From contig JAHFPV010000003.1 of the NCBI GenBank assembly GCA_023266575.1, forward strand, positions 62,001 to 126,000: a DNA stretch of 64,000 nucleotides, written 5' to 3'. The translations under genes were made by a program, and so were the position numbers. Positions 4,403 to 50,780 of the stretch are shown in pieces; within the stretch, counting starts at the first letter, position 1, and every line of letters begins with the position of its first letter. The notes under the pieces were generated by a model. That model was not told the DNA's origin. It made no database searches and saw only the letters and a list, made by a program, of their open reading frames with translations. This stretch comes from Sphingobium sp. (lineage in GTDB: Bacteria > Pseudomonadota > Alphaproteobacteria > Sphingomonadales > Sphingomonadaceae).

Positions 4403-5613
4403 CGATAGGGTTGCGCATCGCCTTCCTGCCGCTGACCGATGCTGCCGTTCTGGTGGCGGCGCGGGAGCGGGGTTTTGCCGAGGAAGAGGGGATCGCCCTT
4501 GATCTGGTGCGCACCACCAGTTGGGCGACGCTGCGCGACCGGTTGGTCTATGGCCAGGTGCAGGGCGCGCATATGTTGGCGCCGCTGGCTGTCGCGGTAA
4601 CATTGGGGCTGAGCCAGCAGCCAGCGCCTTTGGCCGCGCCCTACAAGCTGAACGTCAACGGCAATATGCTGGTGATGGCGTGCGATTTTGCTAAGGCGCT
4701 GGAGCCGGTCATCGCCAACCGACTGGCCGATCCGCTGGGCACCGCGCATGATTTTGCCGCCGCGATCGGCCTGTGGCGACGCAAGCCGGTGATCGGCGTG
4801 GTCCATCGCTTTTCCGGCCATGCGATCATGCTGCGTTACTGGCTGGCGAGTGCGGGCGTGGACCCGGACCGCGACGTCGTGCTGCGCGTGCTGCCGCCAT
4901 CGCTGACGGTCGAGGCGATGCACGCGGGCGAGATTGACGGCTTCATCGCGGGCGAACCCTGGGGCAGCGCGGCGGTGGAGGCTGGTTTGGCGGAAGCCGT
5001 GGCGATCGGCGAGCGGATATGGCGGCGCGGGGTCGAAAAGGTGCTGGCTTTCCGCGAATCCTGGCTGGAGGAAAATCCGCAAGCCGTCGACCGGCTGCTG
5101 CGCGCGCTGGTGCGGGCGGCGGCGTGGTGCGATGACCCGGCGCACAGGGATGACCTTGCCAACCTGCTCGCCCGCCCGGATTATGTCGATCAGCCTGCCT
5201 ATCTGATTGAACGCGCGCTGTCGGGCGGCATTGTCGCGCGGGCGGGGGAACCGCCGATCGTCAGCCCGGATTTCATGCTGTTCGGACGGGAGGCGACGCC
5301 CTTTCCGTGGCGCAGTCAGGCGCTGTGGATCTATTCGCAACTGGTGCTTTGGGGTATGGTCGATCACGATCCGGCGACAGCGACACGCGCCGGGGCGGTG
5401 TTCCGTCCCGACATATTCCGCCGCGCACTGGCCGACAGCAATGTGCCGATGCCCGGTGCCAGCATGAAGCTGGAAGGGGCAGTCGCCTCTCCATTGGCGG
5501 TCGGATCACGCCGGGGCGAACTGACGCTGGGACCGGACAGCTTCTTTGACAAGCGGGTGTTTGACCCGGAACGAATCGAAGAGTTTTTGGCAGGATTTGC
5601 GCCGCTACGTTGA
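4399..5613 (+). CDS. nasS: NasS-type nitrate sensor (NrtA-like solute-binding protein)
   Basis: 404-residue protein of the NrtA/CmpA nitrate-binding family. It begins MTIGLRIAFLPLTDAAVLVA and has no signal peptide or lipobox, which separates the cytoplasmic sensor NasS from the periplasmic transporter subunit NrtA. Known role: NasS binds nitrate or nitrite and releases NasT so that the nas leaders are read through. Overlap of 4 bases with nasT fixes the start. No NrtB or NrtD permease or ATPase genes are nearby, again favouring a sensor over a transporter component. Confidence 0.9.
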   Translation: MTIGLRIAFLPLTDAAVLVAARERGFAEEEGIALDLVRTTSWATLRDRLVYGQVQGAHMLAPLAVAVTLGLSQQPAPLAAPYKLNVNGNMLVMACDFAKALEPVIANRLADPLGTAHDFAAAIGLWRRKPVIGVVHRFSGHAIMLRYWLASAGVDPDRDVVLRVLPPSLTVEAMHAGEIDGFIAGEPWGSAAVEAGLAEAVAIGERIWRRGVEKVLAFRESWLEENPQAVDRLLRALVRAAAWCDDPAHRDDLANLLARPDYVDQPAYLIERALSGGIVARAGEPPIVSPDFMLFGREATPFPWRSQALWIYSQLVLWGMVDHDPATATRAGAVFRPDIFRRALADSNVPMPGASMKLEGAVASPLAVGSRRGELTLGPDSFFDKRVFDPERIEEFLAGFAPLR

Positions 5614-14859: not shown

Positions 14860-15381
14860 TTATAACCCCGCCAGATCCTCAGGCCGGTTGATATTGGGCA
14901 TGACCAGCCCCGGCATCTCCACCACCCGCGCGCCGATGCGGTCGAGCCAGCCATAGATGGAGCGGTTATTGTCCGCCGCCAGATGCGCGTCGAGTTCAGG
15001 CGCGAGAGATGCAGGCCACCAGCCGAGCAATTGCTGGCCTTTCAATATCGCCGCATCCGCCCCGATCAGTGCCGCTGGCAGGTCCACCGGATAGAGTGGC
15101 ATGTCGCACCCCGTCGTCAATACCCCGGCAAAGCCGTGGTTCTGCGCATCATGCAGCGCGGCGTTCAGCCCGCCCAATGGTCCCATGTCCGGCGCGGGCC
15201 GATCGGCCAGGCCACCCGCGCGCCCGCAGATCACCACCTGCGCGACATGGGGCGCAAGGCCTGCGATCGCATGGTCCAGCAAGGTCCGTCCATCCGCCAT
15301 CACGGCCAGCGCCTTGTCGCTGCCAAAGCGGCTGGACCGGCCCCCCGCCAGCACCGCGCCCAATATGAGCTGTTCCGTCAT
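14860..15381 (-). CDS. mobA: Molybdenum cofactor guanylyltransferase
   Basis: Attaches GMP to molybdopterin to form MGD, needed by both the nitrate reductase and the formate dehydrogenase here. 173 residues with the nucleotidyltransferase start LILGAVLAGGRSSRFGSDKA and a GPLGGLNAAL segment. ATG at 15381 is chosen since the preceding in-frame residues show no similarity. It is divergent from the LysR gene, with the shared dyad 15392-15410 between them, so it may be co-regulated with formate dehydrogenase. Confidence 0.9.
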   Translation of the reverse strand: MTEQLILGAVLAGGRSSRFGSDKALAVMADGRTLLDHAIAGLAPHVAQVVICGRAGGLADRPAPDMGPLGGLNAALHDAQNHGFAGVLTTGCDMPLYPVDLPAALIGADAAILKGQQLLGWWPASLAPELDAHLAADNNRSIYGWLDRIGARVVEMPGLVMPNINRPEDLAGL

Positions 15382-15391
15382 GATGCTTCCT

Positions 15392-15410
15392 TGATAGCGC
15401 CCTTCTATCA
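15392..15410. promoter_or_regulatory. LysR-type operator, copy 1 (mobA/lysR)
   Basis: Perfect dyad TGATAG-N7-CTATCA, a T-N(17)-A interrupted palindrome between the divergent mobA and lysR starts. The same two half-sites with the same spacing occur at 16327-16345 before fdsG. Identity of both copies flanking one LysR gene makes autoregulation likely; binding is inferred. Confidence 0.75.
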
Positions 15411-15426
15411 GGCCTATACCAAATAT

Positions 15427-16329
15427 ATGCAGACCCGCCTCGTCGAATATTTCCTGGCGCTGGAGCGTGAAGGCCATTTTGCGCGGGCGGCGGCTCTATG
15501 CCATGTGTCGCAACCCACGCTGTCGGCGGGCATCGCTACGCTGGAATCGCAACTGGGCAAAAGGCTGATCCGGCGCGACCGCAAATATGCCGGATTGACG
15601 CCGGAGGGCGAGGCGATTTTGCCATGGGCGCGGCAATTGGTCGCGGCGGCCGAGGCGCTGGGGCAGGCGGCGGAGACGGCGCGCGGGCCGCTTAAGGGCG
15701 AATTGCGGCTGGGCGCAATCCCCGCCGCCATGCCGGCGATCGGCTGTCTGGCGACCGCGATGCTGGAACGACATCCGGGGCTGAACATTTCCGTCCGGGC
15801 GCTGACATCGCGCCAGATCGAGCGCGAACTGGCCGCGTTCGAGCTGGACGCGGGCCTCACCTATCTCGATTTCGAACCGCCCGCCCACGCACTGTCGGTG
15901 CCGCTCTATGCCGAGCGGGCGATGCTGGTGAGCGCGGTGGATGGCGTGCCGATTCCCGCTGTCGTCGATTGGGCCGACCTCGCCAGCCTGCCGCTCTGCC
16001 TGTTGCATCAGGGGATGCAGAACCGGCGGATATTGGACGCGCGGCTGGCCGATCGAGGACTGGCGCTGCGGCCCTTGGTGACCGCCGACTCTTATGTCGC
16101 GCTGTTGGGGCTGGTGCAGCAGGGGCGGCTCTGTTCGATCATTCCCGACAGCCATGCCGCCTTGCTGGACGGTCTGCGCTGGGCGCGCACGACGCCGCTG
16201 CCGGACATGGGGGATGGCAGCCGGGTTGGCGTCATCGTGTCGGACAGTGCGCCGATGGGCCCATTGGCGCAGGCGGTGCTGGCGGTGGCGCGCGGGTTGC
16301 GCCTGCCGCCCGGATTCGGATCGCTTTGA
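15427..16329 (+). CDS. LysR-family regulator of the formate dehydrogenase cluster
   Basis: 300 residues: winged helix-turn-helix at about 1-60 (VEYFLALEREGHFARAAALC, then VSQPTLSAGIATLE), then a periplasmic-binding-like effector domain. Start ATG 15427 gives the usual LysR length; the longer open frame upstream runs antisense through mobA. Similar regulators (FdsR) accompany fds operons in Cupriavidus. Matching dyads at 15392 and 16327 flank the gene. Its effector (formate, or the state of molybdate supply) is unknown. Confidence 0.9.
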   Translation: MQTRLVEYFLALEREGHFARAAALCHVSQPTLSAGIATLESQLGKRLIRRDRKYAGLTPEGEAILPWARQLVAAAEALGQAAETARGPLKGELRLGAIPAAMPAIGCLATAMLERHPGLNISVRALTSRQIERELAAFELDAGLTYLDFEPPAHALSVPLYAERAMLVSAVDGVPIPAVVDWADLASLPLCLLHQGMQNRRILDARLADRGLALRPLVTADSYVALLGLVQQGRLCSIIPDSHAALLDGLRWARTTPLPDMGDGSRVGVIVSDSAPMGPLAQAVLAVARGLRLPPGFGSL

Positions 16330-16428: not shown

Positions 16429-16881
16429 ATGGAAGAGTTTATCGAAGGCTGGACCGCGCGCCACGGCGCGACCCGCGACCAGTTGCTGCCGCTGCTCCAT
16501 GCGGTGCAGGAAGAGGCTGGCTATGTACAGGATGCGCTCGTGCCGGTCATCGCTCGCGCGCTGAACTTGTCGCGCGCTGACGTGCATGGCGTCGTCACCT
16601 TCTACCATGATTTTCGCCGGACGCCTGCGGGTCGCCATGTCGTCAAGCTGTGCCGGGCCGAAAGCTGTCAGGCGCGGGGCGGCGCGGCGATCGAGGCGGC
16701 GGCGGCGCAACGGCTGGGCGTGGCGATGGGGGAGACGCGCAGCGACGGCGCGGTCAGTCTGGAGCCGGTCTATTGCCTGGGCCTGTGCGCGGTCGGCCCC
16801 AATGCGCTGGTCGATGGTCGTCCCATGGCGCGGATCGACACGGCCGCGCTGGATCGGATCGCAGCGGAGGTGGCGGCATGA
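16429..16881 (+). CDS. fdsG: NAD-dependent formate dehydrogenase gamma subunit (NuoE-like)
   Basis: 150-residue thioredoxin-fold [2Fe-2S] protein; ligands C75, C80 (CRAESC), C116 and C120 (CLGLC). It passes electrons between the iron-sulfur chain of FdsA and the FMN subunit FdsB in the soluble cytoplasmic complex. First gene of the operon. Its stop overlaps fdsB (ATGA). Confidence 0.93.
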   Translation: MEEFIEGWTARHGATRDQLLPLLHAVQEEAGYVQDALVPVIARALNLSRADVHGVVTFYHDFRRTPAGRHVVKLCRAESCQARGGAAIEAAAAQRLGVAMGETRSDGAVSLEPVYCLGLCAVGPNALVDGRPMARIDTAALDRIAAEVAA

Positions 16882-18527
16882 AAATTTATGTGAGCCGCGA
16901 CATGGCATCAGTTGCGCTGGGCGCGGATGACGTTGCGCAGGCCTTTGCCGACGCCGGGTGCGAGGTAATCCGCACCGGATCGCGCGGGCTGTTCAGCATC
17001 GAGCCTTTGGTAGAGGTGGAGACGGCGGACGGCCGCATCGGCTATGGTCCGGTCGGGCCGTGGGATGTCGCGGCGGTGCTGGATGGCAGCCACCCCAACC
17101 GGCTGGGAGCGGTCGATCAACTCTCCTTCTTCGCCGGGCAGCAGCGTTTCACCTTTGCCCGGTGCGGCATGATCGACCCGCTGAGCCTGACCGATTACGC
17201 CGCGCAGGACGGCTGGAAAGGGCTGGACGCCGCGCGCGCGATGGCGCCACAGGCCGTGGTCGATGCCGTCAAGGCGTCGGGCCTGCGTGGGCGCGGCGGG
17301 GCAGGTTTCCCGACCGGCATCAAATGGCAGACGGTGCTGGATGCGCCGGGGACGCAAAAATATATCGTCTGCAACGCCGACGAGGGCGACAGCGGCACCT
17401 TTGCCGACCGGATGCTGATGGAGGGCGATCCCTATTGCCTGATCGAGGGCATGGCGATCGCCGCCCATGCCGTGGGCGCGCATCATGGCTATATCTATAT
17501 CCGCTCCGAATATCCCTTCGCCATCTACACGATGCGGCTGGCGATCGAGCGATCGGCGCATCGGATCGCGCCCTTCACGCTGGAAGTGCGTGAGGGCGCG
17601 GGCGCCTATGTCTGCGGCGAAGAAACGGCTTTGCTCGATTCGATCGAGGGCAAGCGCGGCCAAGTGCGCGCCAAGCCACCCTTGCCTGCGCTCAAAGGCC
17701 TGTTCGGACAGCCGACGGTGATCAACAATGTGCTGAGCCTCGCTGCCGTGCCGTTCATTCTGGCCGAAGGGGCGGATGCCTATGCGGCGGTCGGCTTTGG
17801 CCGGTCGCGCGGGACGATGCCGGTGCAGCTGGCAGGCAATGTGCGACATGGCGGGCTGTACGAAATCGGCTTTGGCATCACGTTGGGCGAACTGGTGAAC
17901 GATATTGGCGGCGGCACCGCGAATGGCCGCCCGGTGCGCGCGGTGCAGGTGGGCGGGCCGCTGGGGGCTTATTTTCCGCCAAGCATGTTCCATCTGCCCT
18001 TCGATTATGAAAGCTTCGCCGCTGCTGGTGGCCTCATCGGTCATGCCGGGATCACGGTGTTCGATGACAGTGTCGATATGGCGCATATGGCCCGCTTCGC
18101 GATGGAATTTTGCGCTGCGGAAAGCTGCGGCAAATGCACGCCCTGCCGCATCGGATCGACGCGCGGAGTGGAGATTGTCGACCGGATCATGGCGGCGCGG
18201 CCAACTCCCCCATCCGTCATGCCAGCGAGGGCTGGCATCTCACTTGCTGAAGGTGGCGCGGAAGAAAAGGGGGATCCCAGCGTGCGCTGGGATGACGGGG
18301 TTTTGGGCAAAGCCCTCTACTCCCGTTCCCCATCCCGGATCGACAGCTCGCTCGATGCGCAAACCACGCTTCTCCGCGACCTGTGCGATACGATGAAATA
18401 TGGGTCGCTCTGCGCGCTGGGGGGCTTCACCCCCTATCCGGTGCTGAGTGCTCTGGACTATTTTCCAGAGGATTTCGGCGCGAGTCCAAGTCCGAATTTG
18501 GCGCCGTTGAAGGAGGCTGCGGAATGA
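16878..18527 (+). CDS. fdsB: NAD-dependent formate dehydrogenase beta subunit (NuoF-like), with REPIN-derived insertion
   Basis: FMN/NAD-binding diaphorase subunit, 549 residues. N-terminal thioredoxin-like region (about 1-120), then the NuoF core with GLRGRGGAGFPTGIKW (FMN), NADEGDSGTFADR and GAGAYVCGEETALLDSIEG, and the C-terminal [4Fe-4S] ligands C417, C420, C423 and C512. The last spacing is 89 residues, against about 41 in Nqo1/NuoF, so roughly 48 residues are extra. Part of them (about 446-474) is the translated palindrome 18214-18298. The frame stays open through it. Start ATG 16878 overlaps fdsG. Confidence 0.93.
   Translation: MKIYVSRDMASVALGADDVAQAFADAGCEVIRTGSRGLFSIEPLVEVETADGRIGYGPVGPWDVAAVLDGSHPNRLGAVDQLSFFAGQQRFTFARCGMIDPLSLTDYAAQDGWKGLDAARAMAPQAVVDAVKASGLRGRGGAGFPTGIKWQTVLDAPGTQKYIVCNADEGDSGTFADRMLMEGDPYCLIEGMAIAAHAVGAHHGYIYIRSEYPFAIYTMRLAIERSAHRIAPFTLEVREGAGAYVCGEETALLDSIEGKRGQVRAKPPLPALKGLFGQPTVINNVLSLAAVPFILAEGADAYAAVGFGRSRGTMPVQLAGNVRHGGLYEIGFGITLGELVNDIGGGTANGRPVRAVQVGGPLGAYFPPSMFHLPFDYESFAAAGGLIGHAGITVFDDSVDMAHMARFAMEFCAAESCGKCTPCRIGSTRGVEIVDRIMAARPTPPSVMPARAGISLAEGGAEEKGDPSVRWDDGVLGKALYSRSPSRIDSSLDAQTTLLRDLCDTMKYGSLCALGGFTPYPVLSALDYFPEDFGASPSPNLAPLKEAAE
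18214..18298. repeat. REPIN-like palindromic repeat inside fdsB
   Basis: Two REP-type hairpins, GCCAGC-gagg-GCTGGC and TCCCAGCG-tg-CGCTGGGA, enclosed by the inverted ends CCGTCAT and ATGACGG. This is the usual intergenic two-hairpin repeat architecture, but here it lies wholly in coding sequence and is read in frame as SVMPARAGISL, a linker and DPSVRWDDG. Confidence 0.85.
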
Positions 18528-21370
18528 CCTTTACCCGCGAAACCGACCATGGCACCCCGGCTGCAATCGCTACCGGCAAGTCCGTCACCCTGACCATCGA
18601 CGGGCAGGCCGTGACCCTGCCCGAAGGCACCAGTATCATGCGCGCCGCGTCGCTGCTGGGCGGCTCCATCCCCAAACTCTGCGCCACCGACAGTGTCGAG
18701 AGTTTCGGCTCCTGCCGCCTTTGCCTGGTCGAGGTGGAAGGGCGCAACGGCTATCCCGCCTCCTGCACCACACCGGTGGCCGAAGGCATGGTCGTGCACA
18801 CCCAGACCGATCGGCTGAAAAAGCTGCGGCGCGGGGTGATGGAACTCTATATTTCCGATCATCCGCTCGACTGCCTGACCTGCGGCGCTAATGGCGATTG
18901 CGAATTGCAGGATCAGGCCGGCGCGGTTGGCCTGCGCGACGTGCGCTACGGCTATGACGGCGCGACCAATATGGGGCAGGCGAAGGACCAGTCGAACCCC
19001 TATTTCGATTTCGACCCCAGCAAGTGCATCGTCTGCTCCCGCTGCGTGCGTGCCTGCGACGAAGTGCAGGGGACGTTCGCGCTGACGATCGAGGGGATGG
19101 GGTTCGATTCCAAAGTCTCCGCGTCGCAGGGCGAGGGATTTCTGGGGTCCGAATGTGTCTCCTGCGGTGCCTGCGTGCAGGCCTGCCCCACCGCATCGCT
19201 GATCGAAAAGAAGGTGGTCGAGGTCGGCACCCCCGACCGCGCTGTCGTCACCACCTGCGCCTATTGCGGCGTCGGCTGCACCTTCCGCGCGGAAATGCGG
19301 GGCGAGGAACTGGTGCGCATGGTGCCGTGGAAGGATGGCAAGGCCAATCGCGGCCATAGCTGCGTCAAGGGCCGCTTCGCCTGGGGCTATGCCCAGCATC
19401 AGGATCGCATCCTCAACCCCATGATCCGCGCCAGCGTCGATCAGCCATGGCGCGAAGTGTCATGGGATGAGGCGATCGACTATACCGCGTCGGAATTCCG
19501 CCGTATCCAGGCCAAATATGGCACCCGCTCCATCGGCGGCATCACGTCCAGCCGCTGCACCAACGAAGAAACCTTCCTGGTCCAGAAACTGATCCGGCAG
19601 GGCTTCGGCAATAATAATGTCGATACCTGCGCCCGCGTCTGCCACTCGCCGACCGGCTATGGCCTGAGCCAGACCTTCGGCACATCGGCTGGCACGCAGG
19701 ATTTCGACAGCGTCATGCAGGCGGACGTGATCCTGGTCATCGGCGCGAACCCGACCGACGGCCACCCGGTATTTGCCAGCCGCATGAAAAGGCGGTTGCG
19801 GCAGGGCGCGAAGCTGATCGTCATGGACCCGCGCCGCACCGATCTGGTCAAATCCCCCCATGTCGAGGCGGACCATCATCTGCCCCTGCGCCCCGGCACC
19901 AATGTCGCGATGCTGACCGCGATGGCGCATGTGATCGTCACCGAAAAACTCTATGACGAGGCGTTCATTCGCGAGCGCTGCGATTGGGACGAGTTTGCCG
20001 ACTGGGCCGATTTCGTCTCCCAACCCGCCCGCTCGCCCGAAGCCATCGAGCCGCTGACCGGCGTGAAGGCGGATGAGGTGCGCGCCGCCGCCCGGCTTTA
20101 CGCCACCGGCGGCAATGGTGCCATTTACTATGGCCTTGGCGTGACCGAGCATAGCCAGGGGTCATCGACCGTCATGGCCATCGCCAACCTCGCCATGGCC
20201 ACCGGCAATGTCGGGCGAGAGGGCGTTGGCGTGAATCCGCTGCGTGGCCAGAATAATGTCCAGGGCGCCTGCGACATGGGCAGCTTCCCGCATGAATTTT
20301 CCGGCTATCGCCATGTGTCGGACGTGGCCACGCGCAGCCTGTTCGAGCAGGCATGGGGCGTGTCGCTCGACGGCGAGCCGGGGCTGCGCATCCCCAACAT
20401 GCTGGACGCGGCGACCGACGGGACGTTCAAGGGGCTGTTCGTGCAGGGTGAGGATATTCTCCAATCCGATCCCAATACCCATCATGTCGCGGCGGGGCTG
20501 GCGGCGATGGAGTGCGTGGTGGTGCAGGACCTGTTCCTCAACGAAACCGCCAATTACGCCCATATCTTTCTGCCCGGTTCGACCTTCCTGGAGAAGGACG
20601 GCACCTTCACCAACGCCGAACGCCGCATCCAGCGGGTGCGCAAGGTGATGGCGCCCCTGAACGGCTATGCCGACTGGGAAATCGTTCAGCTGGTCGCCAA
20701 TGCCATGGGCCTCAATTGGACCTATGATCACCCCTCCCAGATCATGGATGAGATTGCGGCGTTGACCCCGACCTTTGCCGGTGTCCATTATGACCGGCTG
20801 GAGGCAGAGGGATCGCTGCAATGGCCCGCCAATGACGCTGCGCCGGACGGCACGCCGACGATGCATATGGGCGGCTTCGTGCGGGGCAAGGGTAAGTTCG
20901 TCGTCACCGATTATGTGCCGACCGATGAAAAGACCGGCCCGCGCTTCCCGCTGCTGCTGACGACCGGACGCATCCTGTCCCACTATAATGTCGGCGCGCA
21001 GACGCGGCGCACCGCCAACACCGCCTGGCACCCGGAGGACCGGCTGGAAATCCATCCGTCGGACGCCGAGAATCGCGGGATCAAGGAGGGCGACTGGGTC
21101 GCGCTGAAGAGCCGCGCGGGGGAAACGACGCTGCGCGCGCAAGTGACCGAACGGGTTGCGCCGGGCGTGGTCTATACCACCTTCCACCACCCCGAAACGC
21201 AGGCTAATGTCATCACCACCGACTATAGCGACTGGGCGACCAACTGCCCGGAATATAAGGTGACGGCGGTGCAGGTCATGCCATCCAACGGGCCGAGCGA
21301 CTGGCAACAGGATTATGCGCAGAAGGCCCGGATGAGCCGCCGCATTGCACCACTGGAAGCAGCGGAATAG
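18524..21370 (+). CDS. fdsA: NAD-dependent formate dehydrogenase alpha (catalytic) subunit
   Basis: Mo-bisMGD enzyme oxidising formate to CO2, 948 residues. NuoG-like N-terminus with a [2Fe-2S] domain (SFGSCRLCLVEVEG), two ferredoxin clusters (C168/171/174/178 and C211/214/217/221), a further cluster with C245, C248 and C252 (TCAYCGVGC), then the catalytic domain with active-site C373 (Mo ligand) followed by H374 (CARVCHSPTGYGLSQ). The Mo ligand is cysteine, not selenocysteine. ATG 18524 overlaps the fdsB stop. Cytoplasmic, part of the FdsABGD complex. Confidence 0.96.
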   Translation: MTFTRETDHGTPAAIATGKSVTLTIDGQAVTLPEGTSIMRAASLLGGSIPKLCATDSVESFGSCRLCLVEVEGRNGYPASCTTPVAEGMVVHTQTDRLKKLRRGVMELYISDHPLDCLTCGANGDCELQDQAGAVGLRDVRYGYDGATNMGQAKDQSNPYFDFDPSKCIVCSRCVRACDEVQGTFALTIEGMGFDSKVSASQGEGFLGSECVSCGACVQACPTASLIEKKVVEVGTPDRAVVTTCAYCGVGCTFRAEMRGEELVRMVPWKDGKANRGHSCVKGRFAWGYAQHQDRILNPMIRASVDQPWREVSWDEAIDYTASEFRRIQAKYGTRSIGGITSSRCTNEETFLVQKLIRQGFGNNNVDTCARVCHSPTGYGLSQTFGTSAGTQDFDSVMQADVILVIGANPTDGHPVFASRMKRRLRQGAKLIVMDPRRTDLVKSPHVEADHHLPLRPGTNVAMLTAMAHVIVTEKLYDEAFIRERCDWDEFADWADFVSQPARSPEAIEPLTGVKADEVRAAARLYATGGNGAIYYGLGVTEHSQGSSTVMAIANLAMATGNVGREGVGVNPLRGQNNVQGACDMGSFPHEFSGYRHVSDVATRSLFEQAWGVSLDGEPGLRIPNMLDAATDGTFKGLFVQGEDILQSDPNTHHVAAGLAAMECVVVQDLFLNETANYAHIFLPGSTFLEKDGTFTNAERRIQRVRKVMAPLNGYADWEIVQLVANAMGLNWTYDHPSQIMDEIAALTPTFAGVHYDRLEAEGSLQWPANDAAPDGTPTMHMGGFVRGKGKFVVTDYVPTDEKTGPRFPLLLTTGRILSHYNVGAQTRRTANTAWHPEDRLEIHPSDAENRGIKEGDWVALKSRAGETTLRAQVTERVAPGVVYTTFHHPETQANVITTDYSDWATNCPEYKVTAVQVMPSNGPSDWQQDYAQKARMSRRIAPLEAAE

Positions 21371-22960: not shown

Positions 22961-24796
22961 ATGGTAAAAACAGGCATTTCTCTTATCGCGCTGCTGGCGG
23001 CAACGCCCGCTCTGGCGCAGGACGATAACATCGTCGTCACCGCGTCGGGCATCGAACAGTCGCGGGACGAGGTGGGGCAGGCGATCACCGTCATCGACGC
23101 GCAGACCATCCAGACGCGGCAGGCGGTCGATGTGGTCGATCTGCTGGCGACGACGCCGGGCGTGCGCTTCAACCGCAACGGTTCCACCGGCGGCGTGACC
23201 GGGGTGTCGCTGCGCGGCGCGGAAACAACGCAGACATTGGTGCTGATCGACGGGGTGAAGGTCAACGACCCCAGCGGCATCGGCGATGGCTATGATTTCG
23301 GCCATTTGCTGACCGGCAATATCAAGCGGATCGAAGTGCTGCGCGGCTCCAACTCGGTCGTCCATGGCAGCCAGGCGATCGGCGGCGTGGTCAACATCAT
23401 GACTGGCGTGCCTGCCGAGGGCTTTGGAGCGAACGCTTCGGTCGATTATGGCTATAGCGATACGCTGAACGCCAAGGCGGACGTTTCCGGCACCAGCGGG
23501 ATCGCGTCGGGCGGGGTGGGCGCGGCCTATTTCCGCACCGATGGCATTTCCTCGGCGGCGGGCGGCACGGAGAAGGATGGCTATGAAAATATCGCCACCA
23601 ATGCCCGGCTGAAACTGGCGTTCAGCGATGCGCTGAGCCTCGACCTGCGCGGCTATTATATCCATGCCGACCTGGACTATGACAGCTTCTTCGGCGCGCC
23701 TGCCGACAGCAGCGATGTGAGCAAGCTCGACCAATATGTGGGCTATGCGGGTCTCAACTTCGCCCTGCTGGATGGGAAGCTGACCAACCGTGCGGCGGTC
23801 ACTTATCTGCGCAACGACCGCGACTATTATTTCGTGCGCGGCACCGACCCGGACTATGGCTATTCCGGCACCAACCTGCGCTTCGACTATGAAGGCGTCT
23901 ATGCCCCGGTCGATCAGGCCAGGCTGGTGTTCGGCTATGAGCATGAACGGCCCGACTATGATTTCTTCGGTTTCGGCAGCACGTCGTCGGCGAAGATCAA
24001 CATCGACAGCGTCTATGCCCTTGCCATCGTCAAGCCCTTCACCGGCCTGTCGGTCACAGGTGGGGTGCGGCATGACGATCATAGCCAGTTTGGCGGCGCA
24101 ACCACATTCGGCGCGAACGCAAACTACACGCCGAACGCTGGCGCGACCAACATCCGCCTGAGCTATGGCGAAGGGTTCAAGGCACCCTCGCTCTATCAGC
24201 TTTACGACATGTTCAGCGGCAACAGCGCGCTGCGCCCCGAACGGTCGAAAAGCTATGATGTCGGTTTCGACCAGAGCCTGGACGGCGGGCGGGCGACAGT
24301 GTCGGTCACGGCGTTCCTGCGCAATACCACCGACCAGATCAATTATGACAATGCGACCTTCAGCTACAGCAATCTGGACCGCACCCGCGCCAAGGGGGTG
24401 GAGGCCAGCATTGCCTTAAAGCCGGTGGACGCACTGACCGTGACCGGCAGCTATAGCTATGTCGATGCGCGTGACCGGTCGGGCGGGATCAATGATGGCA
24501 ACCGCCTGCCGCGCCGCGCGGTCAATGCGGTCAGCGTCTCGGCGGACTATGTCTGGTCCTTCGGCCTGTCGACTGGTGCCACGGTGACGATGGTGGGCGA
24601 CAGTTTCGACAATGCCGCCAACACCCGCCGTCTGGATGGCTATGCGCTTGCCGGTTTGCGCGCCTCGCTGCCGCTGGGCGAGCATCTGGAAGTCTATGGC
24701 CGCATCGACAATCTGTTCGATGAAGCCTACGCCACCGCCTATGGCTATGGCGTCTATGGCCGCTCCGCCTTTGGCGGTGTGCGTGTCCGCTTCTGA
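22961..24796 (+). CDS. btuB: TonB-dependent cobalamin receptor
   Basis: Outer-membrane vitamin B12 uptake channel, 611 residues. Signal peptide MVKTGISLIALLAATPALAQ, TonB-box region DDNIVVTASGIEQ, plug domain (VVDLLATTPGVRFNRNGST, VLIDGVKVNDPSG) and a 22-strand barrel ending in the terminal aromatic GGVRVRF. ATG 22961 is chosen as it starts the signal peptide; the open frame continues to 22805 without signal-peptide character. The upstream B12 riboswitch fixes the substrate. Confidence 0.95.
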   Translation: MVKTGISLIALLAATPALAQDDNIVVTASGIEQSRDEVGQAITVIDAQTIQTRQAVDVVDLLATTPGVRFNRNGSTGGVTGVSLRGAETTQTLVLIDGVKVNDPSGIGDGYDFGHLLTGNIKRIEVLRGSNSVVHGSQAIGGVVNIMTGVPAEGFGANASVDYGYSDTLNAKADVSGTSGIASGGVGAAYFRTDGISSAAGGTEKDGYENIATNARLKLAFSDALSLDLRGYYIHADLDYDSFFGAPADSSDVSKLDQYVGYAGLNFALLDGKLTNRAAVTYLRNDRDYYFVRGTDPDYGYSGTNLRFDYEGVYAPVDQARLVFGYEHERPDYDFFGFGSTSSAKINIDSVYALAIVKPFTGLSVTGGVRHDDHSQFGGATTFGANANYTPNAGATNIRLSYGEGFKAPSLYQLYDMFSGNSALRPERSKSYDVGFDQSLDGGRATVSVTAFLRNTTDQINYDNATFSYSNLDRTRAKGVEASIALKPVDALTVTGSYSYVDARDRSGGINDGNRLPRRAVNAVSVSADYVWSFGLSTGATVTMVGDSFDNAANTRRLDGYALAGLRASLPLGEHLEVYGRIDNLFDEAYATAYGYGVYGRSAFGGVRVRF

Positions 24797-24809
24797 TATG
24801 GCACAAGGG

Positions 24810-24832
24810 GGGACGGGCGTCAGGCTCGTCCC
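24810..24832. terminator. Hairpin between convergent btuB and btuF
   Basis: GGGACG/CGTCCC stem around an 11-base loop, placed in the 37-base gap between the two converging stops. The T content after it is poor, so it may be a weak bidirectional terminator. Confidence 0.5.
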
Positions 24833-24833
24833 T

Positions 24834-25670
24834 TCACTTTGGCGCGTTCAGCCGCGTCGCGCTTTTGCTGCGTGGCGCCCCAAGTTGCGCCACGATGGCC
24901 CGCGCCGCCTGTACATAGGCGGGGCCGCCGCATACGGTCCAGCTTTGCGGCAGGCTGATGCGCGGGATGCTCTTGATCGCTGGATGCTGAAGCATTTCGG
25001 TCCCCTGATCGACCACCGCTTCGCTGCCGCTTTCGACGATCAGCCAGTCGGGCCGGGCCGCGACCATCGCCTCCAGCGGCACCTGCGCCAGCGCAGGCTT
25101 ACCGAGTTTCGCGGCGAGGTTTGTGAGGCCCACCCGGCGCATCAGGTCATCGACCAATGTGCCGGTGCCGGTCATGTAGCCGCGCCGCTGATAATAGGCC
25201 GCCACGCCGTTACGTTTTGCTTTGGGCAGTGCCGCCAGTTCGCGGTTGATCTGCGCGATCAGCTTTTCGCCCCGGTCGACATGCCCGACCGCGCGCGCGA
25301 CCTGCCGTATCTGATCGAGAATCGCGGCATAGCTGTCCGCACTGGCCAACCCCAGCGTGGTCCATTGCCCCGGCGGCGCGCCAGCCACCATGTTCGGCCC
25401 GATGGGATAGCCCAGGATCAGGTCGGGCCGGATCGCCAGCACCTCCTCCGAAGCGCGCCGCAGCACGCGATAGCTCCGCGCCTTGTCCGCCGCCGCCGAC
25501 AATTCGGGATCGCGCGCATTGCTGCTGAGCGCGGCGATCTGCCCCTCGTCGGCCAGCGCGACGAGATATTGGTCGGCGCAGACATTGAGCGAGACAATGC
25601 GGCGCGGCGTTGCGTTCGCTGCGCTGGTGAGTGTCAGGGCAGTAATGGCAAGGGTCAGCGGACGGATCAT
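24834..25670 (-). CDS. btuF: Periplasmic cobalamin-binding protein (BtuF-like)
   Basis: 278-residue class III solute-binding protein of the vitamin B12/iron-siderophore type. Signal peptide (MIRPLTLAITALTLTSAANA), then PRRIVSLNVCADQYLVALAD, the BtuF/FecB opening. ATG 25670 chosen; the longer frame runs into the palindrome upstream. It lies next to btuCD and a riboswitch-controlled btuB, so cobalamin is the likely ligand, though no riboswitch precedes this gene. Confidence 0.85.
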   Translation of the reverse strand: MIRPLTLAITALTLTSAANATPRRIVSLNVCADQYLVALADEGQIAALSSNARDPELSAAADKARSYRVLRRASEEVLAIRPDLILGYPIGPNMVAGAPPGQWTTLGLASADSYAAILDQIRQVARAVGHVDRGEKLIAQINRELAALPKAKRNGVAAYYQRRGYMTGTGTLVDDLMRRVGLTNLAAKLGKPALAQVPLEAMVAARPDWLIVESGSEAVVDQGTEMLQHPAIKSIPRISLPQSWTVCGGPAYVQAARAIVAQLGAPRSKSATRLNAPK

Positions 25671-25689
25671 GGAGCCTGTCTTGTAGTAG

Positions 25690-25761
25690 GACGTGTTCCC
25701 GCGAAGGCGGGAACCCAGTCCCGCGCTCAGAACTGGGTTCCTGCCTTCGCAGGAACACGTC
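25690..25761. repeat. REPIN-like palindrome between btuF and btuC
   Basis: Long near-perfect palindrome of 72 bases: ends GACGTGTTCC and GGAACACGTC, two inner hairpins (TTCCCGCGAAGGCGGGAA and TTCCTGCCTTCGCAGGAA) and ACCCAGT/ACTGGGT nearest the centre. It fills 72 of the 119 bases between the divergent btuF and btuC starts. Confidence 0.9.
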
Positions 25762-25789
25762 GCTTTGCCAACCGCCAAGGGGAGCGCCC

Positions 25790-26785
25790 ATGACGGCCCG
25801 CCGTCACCCCTTCCTCGTCCCGACGCTGCTGCTTCTGCTGGTCGCCGCAGCAATGGGTTCCGTGATGCTGGGCGCGGTCGCGATCAGTCCGGCGCGGATA
25901 TGGGCGGTGCTGACTGGCGGCGGCGATGATGTTGCGCGCGCGATCATCATCGACCTGCGACTGCCGCGGATGCTGCTTGGCCTGCTGGTCGGCGCGATGC
26001 TGGGCCTGTCGGGCGCGGCGTTGCAGGGCTATTTGCGCAATCCGCTGGCCGAACCCTCCGTGCTGGGTGCGTCCAATGCGGCGGCTTTGGGCGCGGTCTG
26101 TGCGCTCTATTTTGGTCTTAGCGCCTTGCACCCGCTGGTCCTGCCGTTGCTGGCGATCACCACTGCGCTGATCGCCATTGCCGGGCTGTTTCTGCTGGCG
26201 GGACCATCAGAAAGCCCGTTGACGTTGATTCTTGCGGGCATTGCCGTCGCGACGCTGGCGGGAGCGGGGATCAGCCTGTCGCTCAACCTGTCGCCCAATC
26301 CCTTTGCGGCGATGGAGATTATGAGCTGGTTGATGGGCAGTCTGGAAAACCGCAGCTATGTGCATGTCGTCGTCGCCTTGCCCTGTATTGCCATCGGCGC
26401 GGCGCTGCTGCTGGCCGACGGGCGGACGCTGGACGCGCTGACGCTGGGTGAGGAAGGCGCGCAGGCGCTGGGCGTGAACCTCAACGCCGCGCGGTTGCGG
26501 ATGATGCTGGGCGTCGCGATCGGCGTGGGCGGCGCGGTGGCGGTGTCGGGGGCGATCGGCTTTGTTGGCCTGATCGTGCCGCATATCGTGCGCCCGCTGA
26601 CCGACCGGTCGCCCTCAGCCGTGCTATTGCCCTCGCTGCTCGGCGGCGCGGTGCTGCTGACGCTGGCCGACATTGGCGTGCGGCTGATCCCGTCGGCCAA
26701 TGAATTGAAGCTCGGCGTCGTCACCGCGATGCTGGGCGTGCCGGTGTTCCTGGTCCATCTGATGCGGGAGCGGCGGCTATGGTGA
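25790..26785 (+). CDS. btuC: Cobalamin ABC transporter permease (FecCD family)
   Basis: 331-residue inner-membrane permease with about 10 hydrophobic segments. Family signatures: RLPRMLLGLLVGAMLGLSGA, QGYLRNPLAEPSVLGASNAA and the C-terminal FVGLIVPHIVRPLTDR ATPase-contact loop. It overlaps btuD by 7 bases. B12 specificity rests on the neighbouring btuB riboswitch; a siderophore substrate cannot be excluded from the sequence alone. Confidence 0.9.
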   Translation: MTARRHPFLVPTLLLLLVAAAMGSVMLGAVAISPARIWAVLTGGGDDVARAIIIDLRLPRMLLGLLVGAMLGLSGAALQGYLRNPLAEPSVLGASNAAALGAVCALYFGLSALHPLVLPLLAITTALIAIAGLFLLAGPSESPLTLILAGIAVATLAGAGISLSLNLSPNPFAAMEIMSWLMGSLENRSYVHVVVALPCIAIGAALLLADGRTLDALTLGEEGAQALGVNLNAARLRMMLGVAIGVGGAVAVSGAIGFVGLIVPHIVRPLTDRSPSAVLLPSLLGGAVLLTLADIGVRLIPSANELKLGVVTAMLGVPVFLVHLMRERRLW

Positions 26786-29630: not shown

Positions 29631-29995
29631 AGCGCCCAATTCCTGCCAGACTGGCCGCCGAACGACGCGGGCGTCAGGCCGAGCGGATCGCGGCCTGGTG
29701 GCTGCGCTTGAAAGGCTGGCAGATTGTCGGACGGCGGATGCGCACGCCGGCGGGCGAGGTTGATCTGGTCGCGCGCAAGGGCGGGATGCTGGCCTTTGTC
29801 GAGGTGAAGGCGCGCGCCACGGCGGCGGAACTGGACCTGGCGATCGACGAGCGGCGATTGCGCCGGGTCGCGGCGGCGGCGGAAATCCTCTGGCATGATC
29901 TGGGCAAAGCGGGGGACGATATGCGAATCGACGTCATCCTCCTTGCGCCGGGCCGCGCGCCACGCCATCTGGCCAATGTCTGGCATGGGGGGTGA
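29627..29995 (+). CDS. YraN/UPF0102 endonuclease-like protein
   Basis: 122-residue protein with a restriction-endonuclease-like core: RRGRQAERIAAWWLRLKGWQ, then GEVDLVARKGGMLAFVEVKAR, where E and D of GEVDLVA and EVK form the PD-(D/E)xK site. Start GTG 29627 overlaps the rsmI stop. Function of the family is not settled; conserved linkage to rsmI is typical. Confidence 0.9.
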   Translation: MKRPIPARLAAERRGRQAERIAAWWLRLKGWQIVGRRMRTPAGEVDLVARKGGMLAFVEVKARATAAELDLAIDERRLRRVAAAAEILWHDLGKAGDDMRIDVILLAPGRAPRHLANVWHGG

Positions 29996-30012
29996 TGTGC
30001 CGCTCCCCAAAA

Positions 30013-30116
30013 CCGTTCGGGCTGAGCGAAGTCGAAGCCCTCGCCTGAGCGCAAGCGAAGGCAAAGCACCTCGCTAACGCTCGGCGGAGCCCTTCGACTT
30101 CGCTCAGGGCGAACGG
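30013..30116. repeat. Inverted repeat between yraN and gshB
   Basis: Outer arms begin CCGTTCG (30013) and end CGAACGG (30116). The arms share GCTGAGCGAAGTCGAAG-type sequence, about 25 of 31 bases matching, and the 40-base centre holds further short hairpins. It fills nearly the whole intergenic gap and ends 13 bases before the gshB start. Confidence 0.8.
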
Positions 30117-30129
30117 AAAAGGAATGAAG

Positions 30130-31104
30130 ATGACCGAACTCAACCCCCTGACCGTCGCCGTGCAGATGGACCCGATGGAGGGCATCAAGATTGCGGGCGA
30201 TTCGACCTTTCACATCATGCTGGCGGGGCAGGCGCGGGGGCACAGGCTCTACCATTATCTCGCCCCTGACCTGACCTATCGCGATGGCCGGGTGCTGGCC
30301 AAGGCGCGGCCGGTGAAGGTCCAGAAAGTGGAGGGCGATTATTTCGCCTTTGGCGAGGCGGAGATGCTGGACCTGGGCCGCGATGTCGATGTCGTGCTGA
30401 TGCGGCAGGACCCGCCGTTCGACCTGAGCTACATCACCGCCACCCATTTGCTGGAGCGGGTGCAGGCCGAAACGCTGGTGGTCAATGATCCTGCCAGCGT
30501 CCGCAATGCGCCGGAAAAGCTGTTCGTGCTGGACTATGCCCGCTTCATGCCGCCGACGATGATCACCCGTGATCTGGCCGAAGTGCGCAGTTTTCTGGCC
30601 CAGCATGGCGAGATTGTTGTGAAACCGCTTTATGGCAATGCGGGTAACGCCGTGTTCCATGTCGATGCCAAAGGATCGAATCTTTCCGCGCTGGTGGAAA
30701 TCTTCAACGCGTCATGGGTTGAGCCATTCATGGTACAGGCCTTCATCCCCGGCGTCGCCCAAGGCGACAAGCGTATCGTCCTGATCGATGGCGAGGTCGC
30801 GGGCGCGATCAACCGGATTCCGGGCGCGGGCGAAATCCGATCCAACCTGGCGGTCGGCGGGTCTGCGGCCAAGACGGTGCTGACCGACAAAGAACGCGAA
30901 ATCTGCGCCGCTATGGGACCAGAATTGAAGGCGCGCGGATTGCTGTTCGTGGGTATCGATGTGATTGGCGGCGAATGGCTGACTGAGATCAACGTGACCT
31001 CGCCCACCGGCATCGTGGCGATCGACGCCTTTGATGGCACGGATACGGGCGGGCTGATCTGGGACGCGATCGACGCCCGGCTGGCGGCACGGGCGGCGGC
31101 TTGA
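30130..31104 (+). CDS. gshB: Glutathione synthase
   Basis: ATP-grasp ligase joining gamma-glutamylcysteine and glycine, 324 residues. Family segments: MDPMEGIKIAGDSTFHIMLA, LMRQDPPFDLSYI, GEIVVKPLYGNAG and FVGIDVIGGEWLTEINVTSP. ATG 30130 is preferred to 30124 because the AAAAGGA ribosome site lies 6 bases before it. gamma-glutamylcysteine ligase is not in the window. Confidence 0.95.
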   Translation: MTELNPLTVAVQMDPMEGIKIAGDSTFHIMLAGQARGHRLYHYLAPDLTYRDGRVLAKARPVKVQKVEGDYFAFGEAEMLDLGRDVDVVLMRQDPPFDLSYITATHLLERVQAETLVVNDPASVRNAPEKLFVLDYARFMPPTMITRDLAEVRSFLAQHGEIVVKPLYGNAGNAVFHVDAKGSNLSALVEIFNASWVEPFMVQAFIPGVAQGDKRIVLIDGEVAGAINRIPGAGEIRSNLAVGGSAAKTVLTDKEREICAAMGPELKARGLLFVGIDVIGGEWLTEINVTSPTGIVAIDAFDGTDTGGLIWDAIDARLAARAAA

Positions 31105-45427: not shown

Positions 45428-45504
45428 TAGTGGTCCGATTCTGACATTTGCTACCCTATGGGATAAGGCGTGTTCAAATGTCAGAATCTTTTCGGACCAC
45501 TAGC
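45428..45504. repeat. CTAG-bounded stem-loop A
   Basis: Arms 45428-45451 and 45476-45504 pair over 24 bases, with one 4-base bulge (tttt) in the right arm. They begin and end with CTAG and share CTAGTGG and GATTCTGACATTTG with stem-loop B. The loop is 24 bases. AT-richer than its surroundings; non-coding. Confidence 0.85.
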
Positions 45505-45517
45505 ATTCTTTTGATTC

Positions 45518-45596
45518 TAGTGGATTTTACGATTTTGACATTTGCAGACCCATCCCAGCCGCCAGGGGATGCAAATGTCAAAATCAATCCACTAGT
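45518..45596. repeat. CTAG-bounded stem-loop B
   Basis: Arms 45518-45547 and 45571-45596 pair over 26 bases with a 4-base bulge in the left arm. CTAGTGG at the outside and GATTTTGACATTTGCA inside, a diverged copy of stem-loop A, 13 bases away. No coding capacity. Confidence 0.85.
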
Positions 45597-50648: not shown

Positions 50649-50756
50649 TTAAGCCCCTCCCCTTCAGGGGAGGGGTTGGGGTGGGGGTTATCGTCGTAGA
50701 ACTGCGTCTGGGGCACGCCCCCACCCCCAACCCCTCCCCTAAAGGGGAGGGGCTAA
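50649..50756. repeat. Inverted repeat, CCCCTCCCC type
   Basis: Arms beginning TTAAGCCCCTCCCC (50649) and ending GGGGAGGGGCTAAG (to 50756), each a hairpin itself, with GGGGTGGGGG/CCCCCACCCC towards the centre. It lies between nfeD and the SPFH gene. Confidence 0.8.
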
Positions 50757-50780
50757 GTGAGGATTGCGCACCCATCGACC

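Follow-up and report, generated by a model that had tools for sequence, protein, structure and literature searches.

Palindromic repeats of several families within one linker of the formate dehydrogenase subunit FdsB of Sphingobium and its relatives

How does a dispersed palindromic repeat come to lie in frame within an otherwise intact enzyme gene, and what becomes of it there? The question is raised by fdsB in a 64,000-nt stretch of Sphingobium sp. DNA (hereafter the window, meaning the whole stretch). An initial annotation, made from the sequence alone, had placed an 85-bp two-hairpin palindrome within this gene, between the third and fourth [4Fe-4S] cysteines, and we see it there at 18214-18298, between C423 and C512. 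The relevant features, in window positions, are as follows.

16429-16881, plus strand: fdsG, the upstream neighbour, overlapping fdsB by 4 nt
16878-18527 (stop included), plus strand: fdsB, an open frame for the beta subunit (diaphorase) of NAD+-dependent formate dehydrogenase, 549 aa
18126-18146, plus strand: codons C417 to C423, including the first three cluster cysteines C417, C420 and C423 (conserved CxxCxxC)
18214-18298, plus strand: CGTC-type double-hairpin palindrome (family A), in frame, residues 446-474 (SVMPARAGISLAEGGAEEKGDPSVRWDDG)
18215-18238, plus strand: first hairpin, with CGTC tag, 8-bp stem and 4-nt loop (CGTC-ATGCCAGC-GAGG-GCTGGCAT)
18274-18297, minus strand: second hairpin, inverted, with 8-bp stem and 4-nt loop (ATCCCAGC-GTGC-GCTGGGAT-GACG) and its CGTC tag on the minus strand
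18300-18362 (boundaries approximate), plus strand: lineage-specific part of the linker (VLGKALYSRSPSRIDSSLDAQ), with a counterpart also in palindrome-free relatives
18411-18413, plus strand: codon of C512, the fourth cluster cysteine
18524-21370, plus strand: fdsA, 948 aa, with its ATG start at 18524 and a 4-nt overlap with the end of fdsB

Apart from the palindrome, the gene reads as an intact fdsB. Its product, read from the ATG at 16878, contains the Pfam domains Complex1_51K and NADH_4Fe-4S and four cysteines which, beside the conserved CxxCxxC, we take to be the cluster ligands, as established for NuoF/FdsB; fdsG and fdsA adjoin it, with the 4-nt fdsB/fdsA overlap that is also usual at other Sphingobium loci. 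The best solved relative is 6tg9_B, a formate dehydrogenase subunit beta, to which residues 1-440 and 497-535 align while the insert stretch remains unaligned, and 32 aligned relatives are 66-96% identical. A pseudogene reading was rejected, as the open frame and the cluster cysteines are kept.

The arms of the 85-nt inverted repeat (18214-18245 and 18267-18298) are 78% complementary. CGTC at 18215-18218 and GACG at 18294-18297 put the tags at the outer ends of the palindrome, and both 8-bp stems (ATGCCAGC/GCTGGCAT and ATCCCAGC/GCTGGGAT) start with AT and enclose 4-nt loops, GAGG and GTGC, respectively. The tails are CTC and CCC; those of CGTC-1 repeats are mostly, not all, CCA in the accessible part of Di Nocera 2013 (PMC3733652). 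As far as that part of the source describes it, the published CGTC-1 type of REP dimer is one that the window palindrome appears to fit. Folded as RNA, the insert gives −50.5 kcal/mol (z −2.8), a value reached by 2 of 200 shuffles. The hairpins do not stand out by a stem scan of the window, in which 23 stems with up to three mismatches were found for 18.8 expected, not above chance, and only the second hairpin matched exactly; likewise, the ungapped inverted-repeat score of the element is only 11, below the cut-offs of the palindrome scans described below.

The window holds other long palindromes, at 50652-50754, 25690-25761 and 30013-30116, with scores of 27, 24 and 19 that were not reached in 10 shuffles. 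The first lies just ahead of an open frame at 50757, the second falls within the end of the open frame 24612-25793, and the third is inside the minus-strand open frame 29674-30660. Two further inverted repeats, related to each other and with arms resembling GACATTTG/CAAATGTC, lie at 45437-45488 and 45531-45585, separated by some 40 nt; they may mark a site for a regulator or a transposase.

It had been proposed that the fdsB repeat should recur elsewhere in the genome, and it does. A 106-nt stretch containing it matches 34 places in its own genome at E≤10 and, by hand count from the match table and with fdsB itself included, about 16 distinct places at E≤0.1. Five copies besides that in fdsB match across 87-92 nt at 74-78% identity, giving six dispersed places of dimer length, self included, as expected for CGTC-1. 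A Pfam scan of 10 open frames over eight other matching loci returned domains for one only (L013:611-1588), at whose 3′ end the repeat sits; none of the 10 shows a second clear mid-gene insertion of family A.

The name REPIN, given to the element in the initial annotation, is not supported. The tag is CGTC and not of GTAG type, and the RAYT-type transposase domain Y1_Tnp (PF01797) has no match at E≤10 in the window's own genome, which is estimated to be 99.96% complete. A Y1_Tnp match at E≤0.001 was seen in only 8 of the 24 genomes examined. On both results a REPIN/RAYT identity was rejected. The CGTC class is apparently without a dedicated transposase, according to the accessible part of Di Nocera 2013 (PMC3733652).

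The length of the linker had been taken as a further sign of the insert, with 89 residues between the third and fourth cysteines set against about 41 in NuoF/Nqo1. The value of 89 for C423 to C512 is correct, but the comparison overstates the share of the palindrome, since palindrome-free Sphingobium and Sphingopyxis loops already span 68-73 residues. Long spacing was therefore rejected as proof of a palindrome, palindrome-free linkers of 60-73 being common. The spacing in Nqo1 is about 41. In FdsB of other alphaproteobacterial families we read 38-50 in 48 of 48 loops (29 plus 19 of 20, as L351 was not found; 62 such genomes had a match), none of which contains a long insert; two Rhodobacter relatives (L131 and L132) have 38. 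Among the surveyed loops the spacings cluster at 40, 60-61 and 68-70. Many of the 60-61 class bear a ‘PQMHNA’-like segment, and the 68-70 class bears a ‘GYLGKALYSRSPxRID’-like segment. The 89 residues of the window are thus a 68-70 linker plus about 20, and the palindrome itself accounts for no more than about 20 of the surplus.

To place the insert among its relatives, we compared 208 distinct FdsB loops from 243 loci, identical DNA being collapsed; most are from Sphingomonadaceae, with a few from outside the family. The spacing survey missed L038, L129, L134, L155 and L255, which were inspected by eye; no open frame was recovered for L134, and L129, added later, may hold a decayed palindrome. 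We see palindromes in 26 of the 208 loops, and these belong to eight types, A to H. Type A is carried by the window, L061 of Sphingobium sp. AS12, L062, L065 and L128, and type B has 13 carriers, including the decayed remnants L071 and L079 and the half copy L077, all three of which have undergone in-frame loss. Types C (L064), D (L094), E (L113) and H (L162) have one carrier each, type F has two (L098 and L142), and type G, a single hairpin, is found in L066 and L067. Type H is a 134-nt G+C-rich palindrome in the fdsB linker of genome G392 (L162/L290), where a TGA occurs elsewhere in the matched stretch.

The eight types occupy essentially one site. In 22 of the 26 carriers the element starts 59-77 nt past the start of the third-cysteine codon, the exceptions being both carriers of G, the remnant L079, and L159, for which the second half alone was matched. 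Nine elements measured individually start 58-72 nt past the same point, whatever the backbone. Inverted-repeat scores separate the two kinds of loop: nothing above 12 is found in the 182 palindrome-free loops, and 17 of the 26 carriers score at least 13. An unrelated insert of the same length in all close relatives had been named in the initial annotation as evidence against its reading. One close relative, L063, does carry such an insert, of type B and at the identical spacing of 89, yet type B is a dispersed palindrome family too, so the finding is widened rather than refuted. A single insert common to all relatives was rejected, as the types differ between them.

A PQMHN-like motif is present in 98 of the 208 loops, none of which carries a palindrome; this linker type may do something, being common yet never palindrome-bearing. 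An earlier form of the comparison, that 0 of 99 loops of spacing 60-61 carry a palindrome (Fisher test), was withdrawn as circular, because the palindrome itself changes the spacing and the D and F carriers nest among spacing-60 relatives.

Several fds loci differ in other ways. Two fdsB-like matches per genome occur in Sphingobium lactosutens (L072 and L129, one with a linker of 69 and the other of 88) and in G048, G275 and G294. In L155 (G341) a frame change in the fdsB linker, either real or a sequencing error, puts the cysteine motif and the fourth cysteine in different frames. In L119 and L120, fdsB and fdsA are 519 nt apart, and the beginning of this gap appears MobA-like; a similar open frame lies near fds in the window (14860-15477, minus strand).

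As the types were defined within the linker, a scan blind to families was run over 78 named loci (570,428 bases), with inverted repeats scored as matches minus twice the mismatches, a cut-off of 16 and a span of up to 170; gene spans were taken from tblastn, and the L129 loop was delimited manually. The scan misses the window's own element (score 11). It found 20 strong palindromes. Of these, 8 fall within the fdsB linker, which totals 15.6 kb, whereas the remainder of fdsB (105 kb), together with fdsG (32 kb) and fdsA (213 kb), yielded none in 350.6 kb; the other 12 are spread over the 204 kb outside these genes. The conditional p for enrichment in the linker is about 1e-11, a figure that ignores relatedness, and the eight linker hits are not independent, with A found twice and B three times. 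Codon-shuffled copies gave no hits in a first round, and one locus in five further rounds of 78.

Types A to F are also repeated elsewhere in their own genomes. These counts are of matches, and as palindromes match both strands, the number of places is smaller. For type A there are 7-15 matches at E≤1e-5 in five carriers and 2-15 in six other genomes, obtained with a query lying partly in flank. For type B, each of the 14 genomes searched, whether or not it carries B in fdsB, has at least 6 to 58 matches, with up to 40 candidates scored per genome; at least 58 are in the window's genome, none of them in fdsB. Type C gave 21 matches in G495 and 15 in the window's own genome, and type D gave 67 in G508 and 26 in the window's own genome. 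Types E (31 matches in G510) and F (80 and 82 in two carriers) have none in the window's own genome.

The history of the linker was followed on a DNA tree built by a quick search from 87 fdsB genes, with the linker excluded and with L128 (a frameshift elsewhere, on a long branch) and 12 far rows left out; a protein tree was poorly resolved inside Sphingobium, and the DNA tree was relied on instead, of whose 84 inner branches 33 are unresolved. Parsimony on this tree requires 17 changes of insert state, or 10 if presence alone is scored. The window groups with L061 and L062, all of type A (support 97), and these three are joined by L063, of type B, and L064, of type C (support 99). The two nearest relatives of the window thus share its type, and the next two carry others. 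In a clade of 17 (support 95), 16 members have a palindrome or a remnant and only L117 is empty. Type B also appears in L110, in L077 and in a well separated group with a 40-residue backbone (L288 and L289), whose neighbours L293 and L294 lack a palindrome. The closest company of the D and F carriers is loci of spacing 60. These distributions suggest that palindromes were gained many times in the linker, putatively by insertion, and were apparently exchanged for one another.

What the protein makes of such inserts can be approached from the coding sequence. The frame continues through the palindrome of this conserved gene, as in the Rickettsia-type elements, and in nine examined elements the frame used has no stop; of the frames that are open, one of the least basic tends to be used (exact p 0.019, by a measure chosen post hoc). 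The family A segment is probably read into protein. With the open frame, the genomic copies and the conserved alignment taken together, the original proposal is supported to this extent: fdsB, intact in other respects, now includes a dispersed palindrome within its reading frame. AlphaFold gives residues 445-485 of the window FdsB pLDDT values below 50, between helices 421-440 and 492-509, and residues 446-498 of L094 (type D) are likewise of low confidence; the alignments used were shallow (33-36 sequences) and the conserved stretch 241-273 also has low pLDDT, making this a weak indicator of disorder. The models suggest that the linker is probably disordered. Among the window, L061 and L062, synonymous/nonsynonymous codon differences in the insert are 1/2, 0/4 and 1/2, compared to 66/16, 60/12 and 64/13 for the same pairs in 400 upstream codons (Fisher p 0.0014 for one pair and 0.11 for another), with small insert counts and events that are not independent. 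On these few events the insert shows no apparent sign of amino-acid constraint.

The best explanation for these observations is, in our view and with a probability of about 0.7, a permissive linker, probably disordered, in which palindromes are taken up time and again and exchanged for one another. A CGTC-type REP dimer would insert in frame between two helices of the C-terminal iron-sulphur domain of FdsB, where the linker would form a permissive pocket in Sphingobium and its kin on which dispersed palindromes land repeatedly. An inserted palindrome would stay when its frame is open and its peptide tolerated. Retained inserts would then drift near-neutrally, under little amino-acid constraint, shrink through in-frame deletions, and be replaced by palindromes of other families. 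Against this reading, we found neither a transposase nor a target duplication nor a mechanism of insertion for these elements, and the retention of palindromes or remnants in 16 of 17 members of one clade is more than simple neutral drift suggests. Palindromes next to fdsB in Novosphingobium, described below, hint at an RNA role.

The same retention, in which palindromes seem swapped and not simply lost, fits an alternative in which selection favours an RNA hairpin in the 3′ region of fdsB, supplied by any palindrome family and with the peptide as a by-product; putative roles would be in mRNA decay, in ribosome pausing before the fourth cysteine, or in coupling to fdsA. The z of −2.8 for the window insert points the same way, as does the location of REPs mostly near gene 3′ ends in the accessible part of Di Nocera 2013 (PMC3733652). 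Five Novosphingobium loci (L095, L096, L100, L101 and L105) have a palindrome in a fdsB-fdsA spacer of 118-176 nt, those of L095, L100 and L101 having been read by eye, while the spacer is 6 nt in L097, L099, L125 and L137; Sphingobium, in which the genes usually overlap, has a palindrome in the linker instead. In L127, palindromes lie just after fdsB (4593-4680). We nevertheless consider selection on the hairpin unlikely as the main cause, as 182 of the 208 distinct FdsB loops have no palindrome, L071, L077 and L079 persist despite in-frame loss of much of the hairpin, and some 225 nt separate the end of the hairpin from fdsA. The Novosphingobium spacer palindromes and the high clade retention still leave some probability to an RNA role. 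A more specific version, which we also consider unlikely, would make the fdsB linker a standing Sphingobium niche, where selection keeps a hairpin between the third and fourth cysteine codons, ahead of fdsA, as the supplying family is exchanged; in genomes with a gene spacer, such as some Novosphingobium, the spacer would house the palindrome instead.

That unrelated families start within a few codons of each other could also reflect insertion machinery that prefers a DNA feature here, rather than survival of the inserts. We regard such a target-site preference as improbable: a common target is unlikely for eight types of which several have no ends in common, copies of a single family are scattered over many further sites of these genomes, and backbones of 40, 60 and 69 residues have all been hit. 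Recruitment of the inserted peptide for a protein function, for example as a contact or regulatory handle, would suit its in-frame presence in 26 of 208 distinct loops but is very improbable given eight unrelated peptides, the use of more than one frame (A versus C), the variable length and the replacement-rich substitutions.

The fdsB linker offers an opportunity that earlier examples do not. REPs in genes are known mostly as single cases, which cannot tell chance from tolerance. Eight unrelated types in one loop are natural replicates, with the same site, different DNA and peptides, and empty neighbours, and with them the conversion of mobile palindromes into protein, and the question of protein versus RNA filtering, can be tested directly. 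The loop also lets the movement of CGTC repeats, which are not known to have a transposase, be probed, and it shows where a formate dehydrogenase naturally takes insertions.

Compared to known systems, the nearest likeness is to the intragenic CGTC/GTAG REPs of Di Nocera, De Gregorio and Rocco 2013 (PMC3733652), with which, in the accessible part of that paper, the fdsB element shares the CGTC tag, 8-bp stem, 4-nt loop and dimers, as well as alphaproteobacterial hosts, including S. wittichii and S. chlorophenolicum. The same part of the paper reports REPs inside open frames, where dimers code for 20-30 aa, and a recB gene that in two Xanthomonas species holds different REPs at roughly one position; fdsB goes unmentioned in it. 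Unlike the cases described there, fdsB has eight types at one site, 26 distinct loops and turnover inside one genus. REPs inside genes were thus already known, and the novel part would appear to be the many palindrome families at one site; none of the open papers listed in our literature searches reports the fdsB site, although single cases may stand in the intragenic-REP supplement of PMC3733652. REPINs with RAYT, as presented in the accessible part of PMC3116915, likewise consist of two inverted REP hairpins and are dispersed, but the fdsB element has the CGTC tag and a host genome in which no RAYT-type gene was found. The R. capsulatus FdsB in RcFDH (PDB 6tg9; PMC7171172, in the part available) is the same subunit as that of the window and has no counterpart to the palindrome-bearing stretch. 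The comparison with Rickettsia made in the initial annotation is apt. The Rickettsia palindromic elements (Ogata 2000, 2002, as summarised in the accessible part of the review PMC10969869) lie in frame in metabolic genes as translational fusions, and RPE-6 and RPE-4 of R. conorii are equated with CGTC-1 and CGTC-4 REPs in the accessible part of PMC3733652. To the extent that these sources describe them, few families enter many genes in Rickettsia, whereas in fdsB many families enter one gene at one place.
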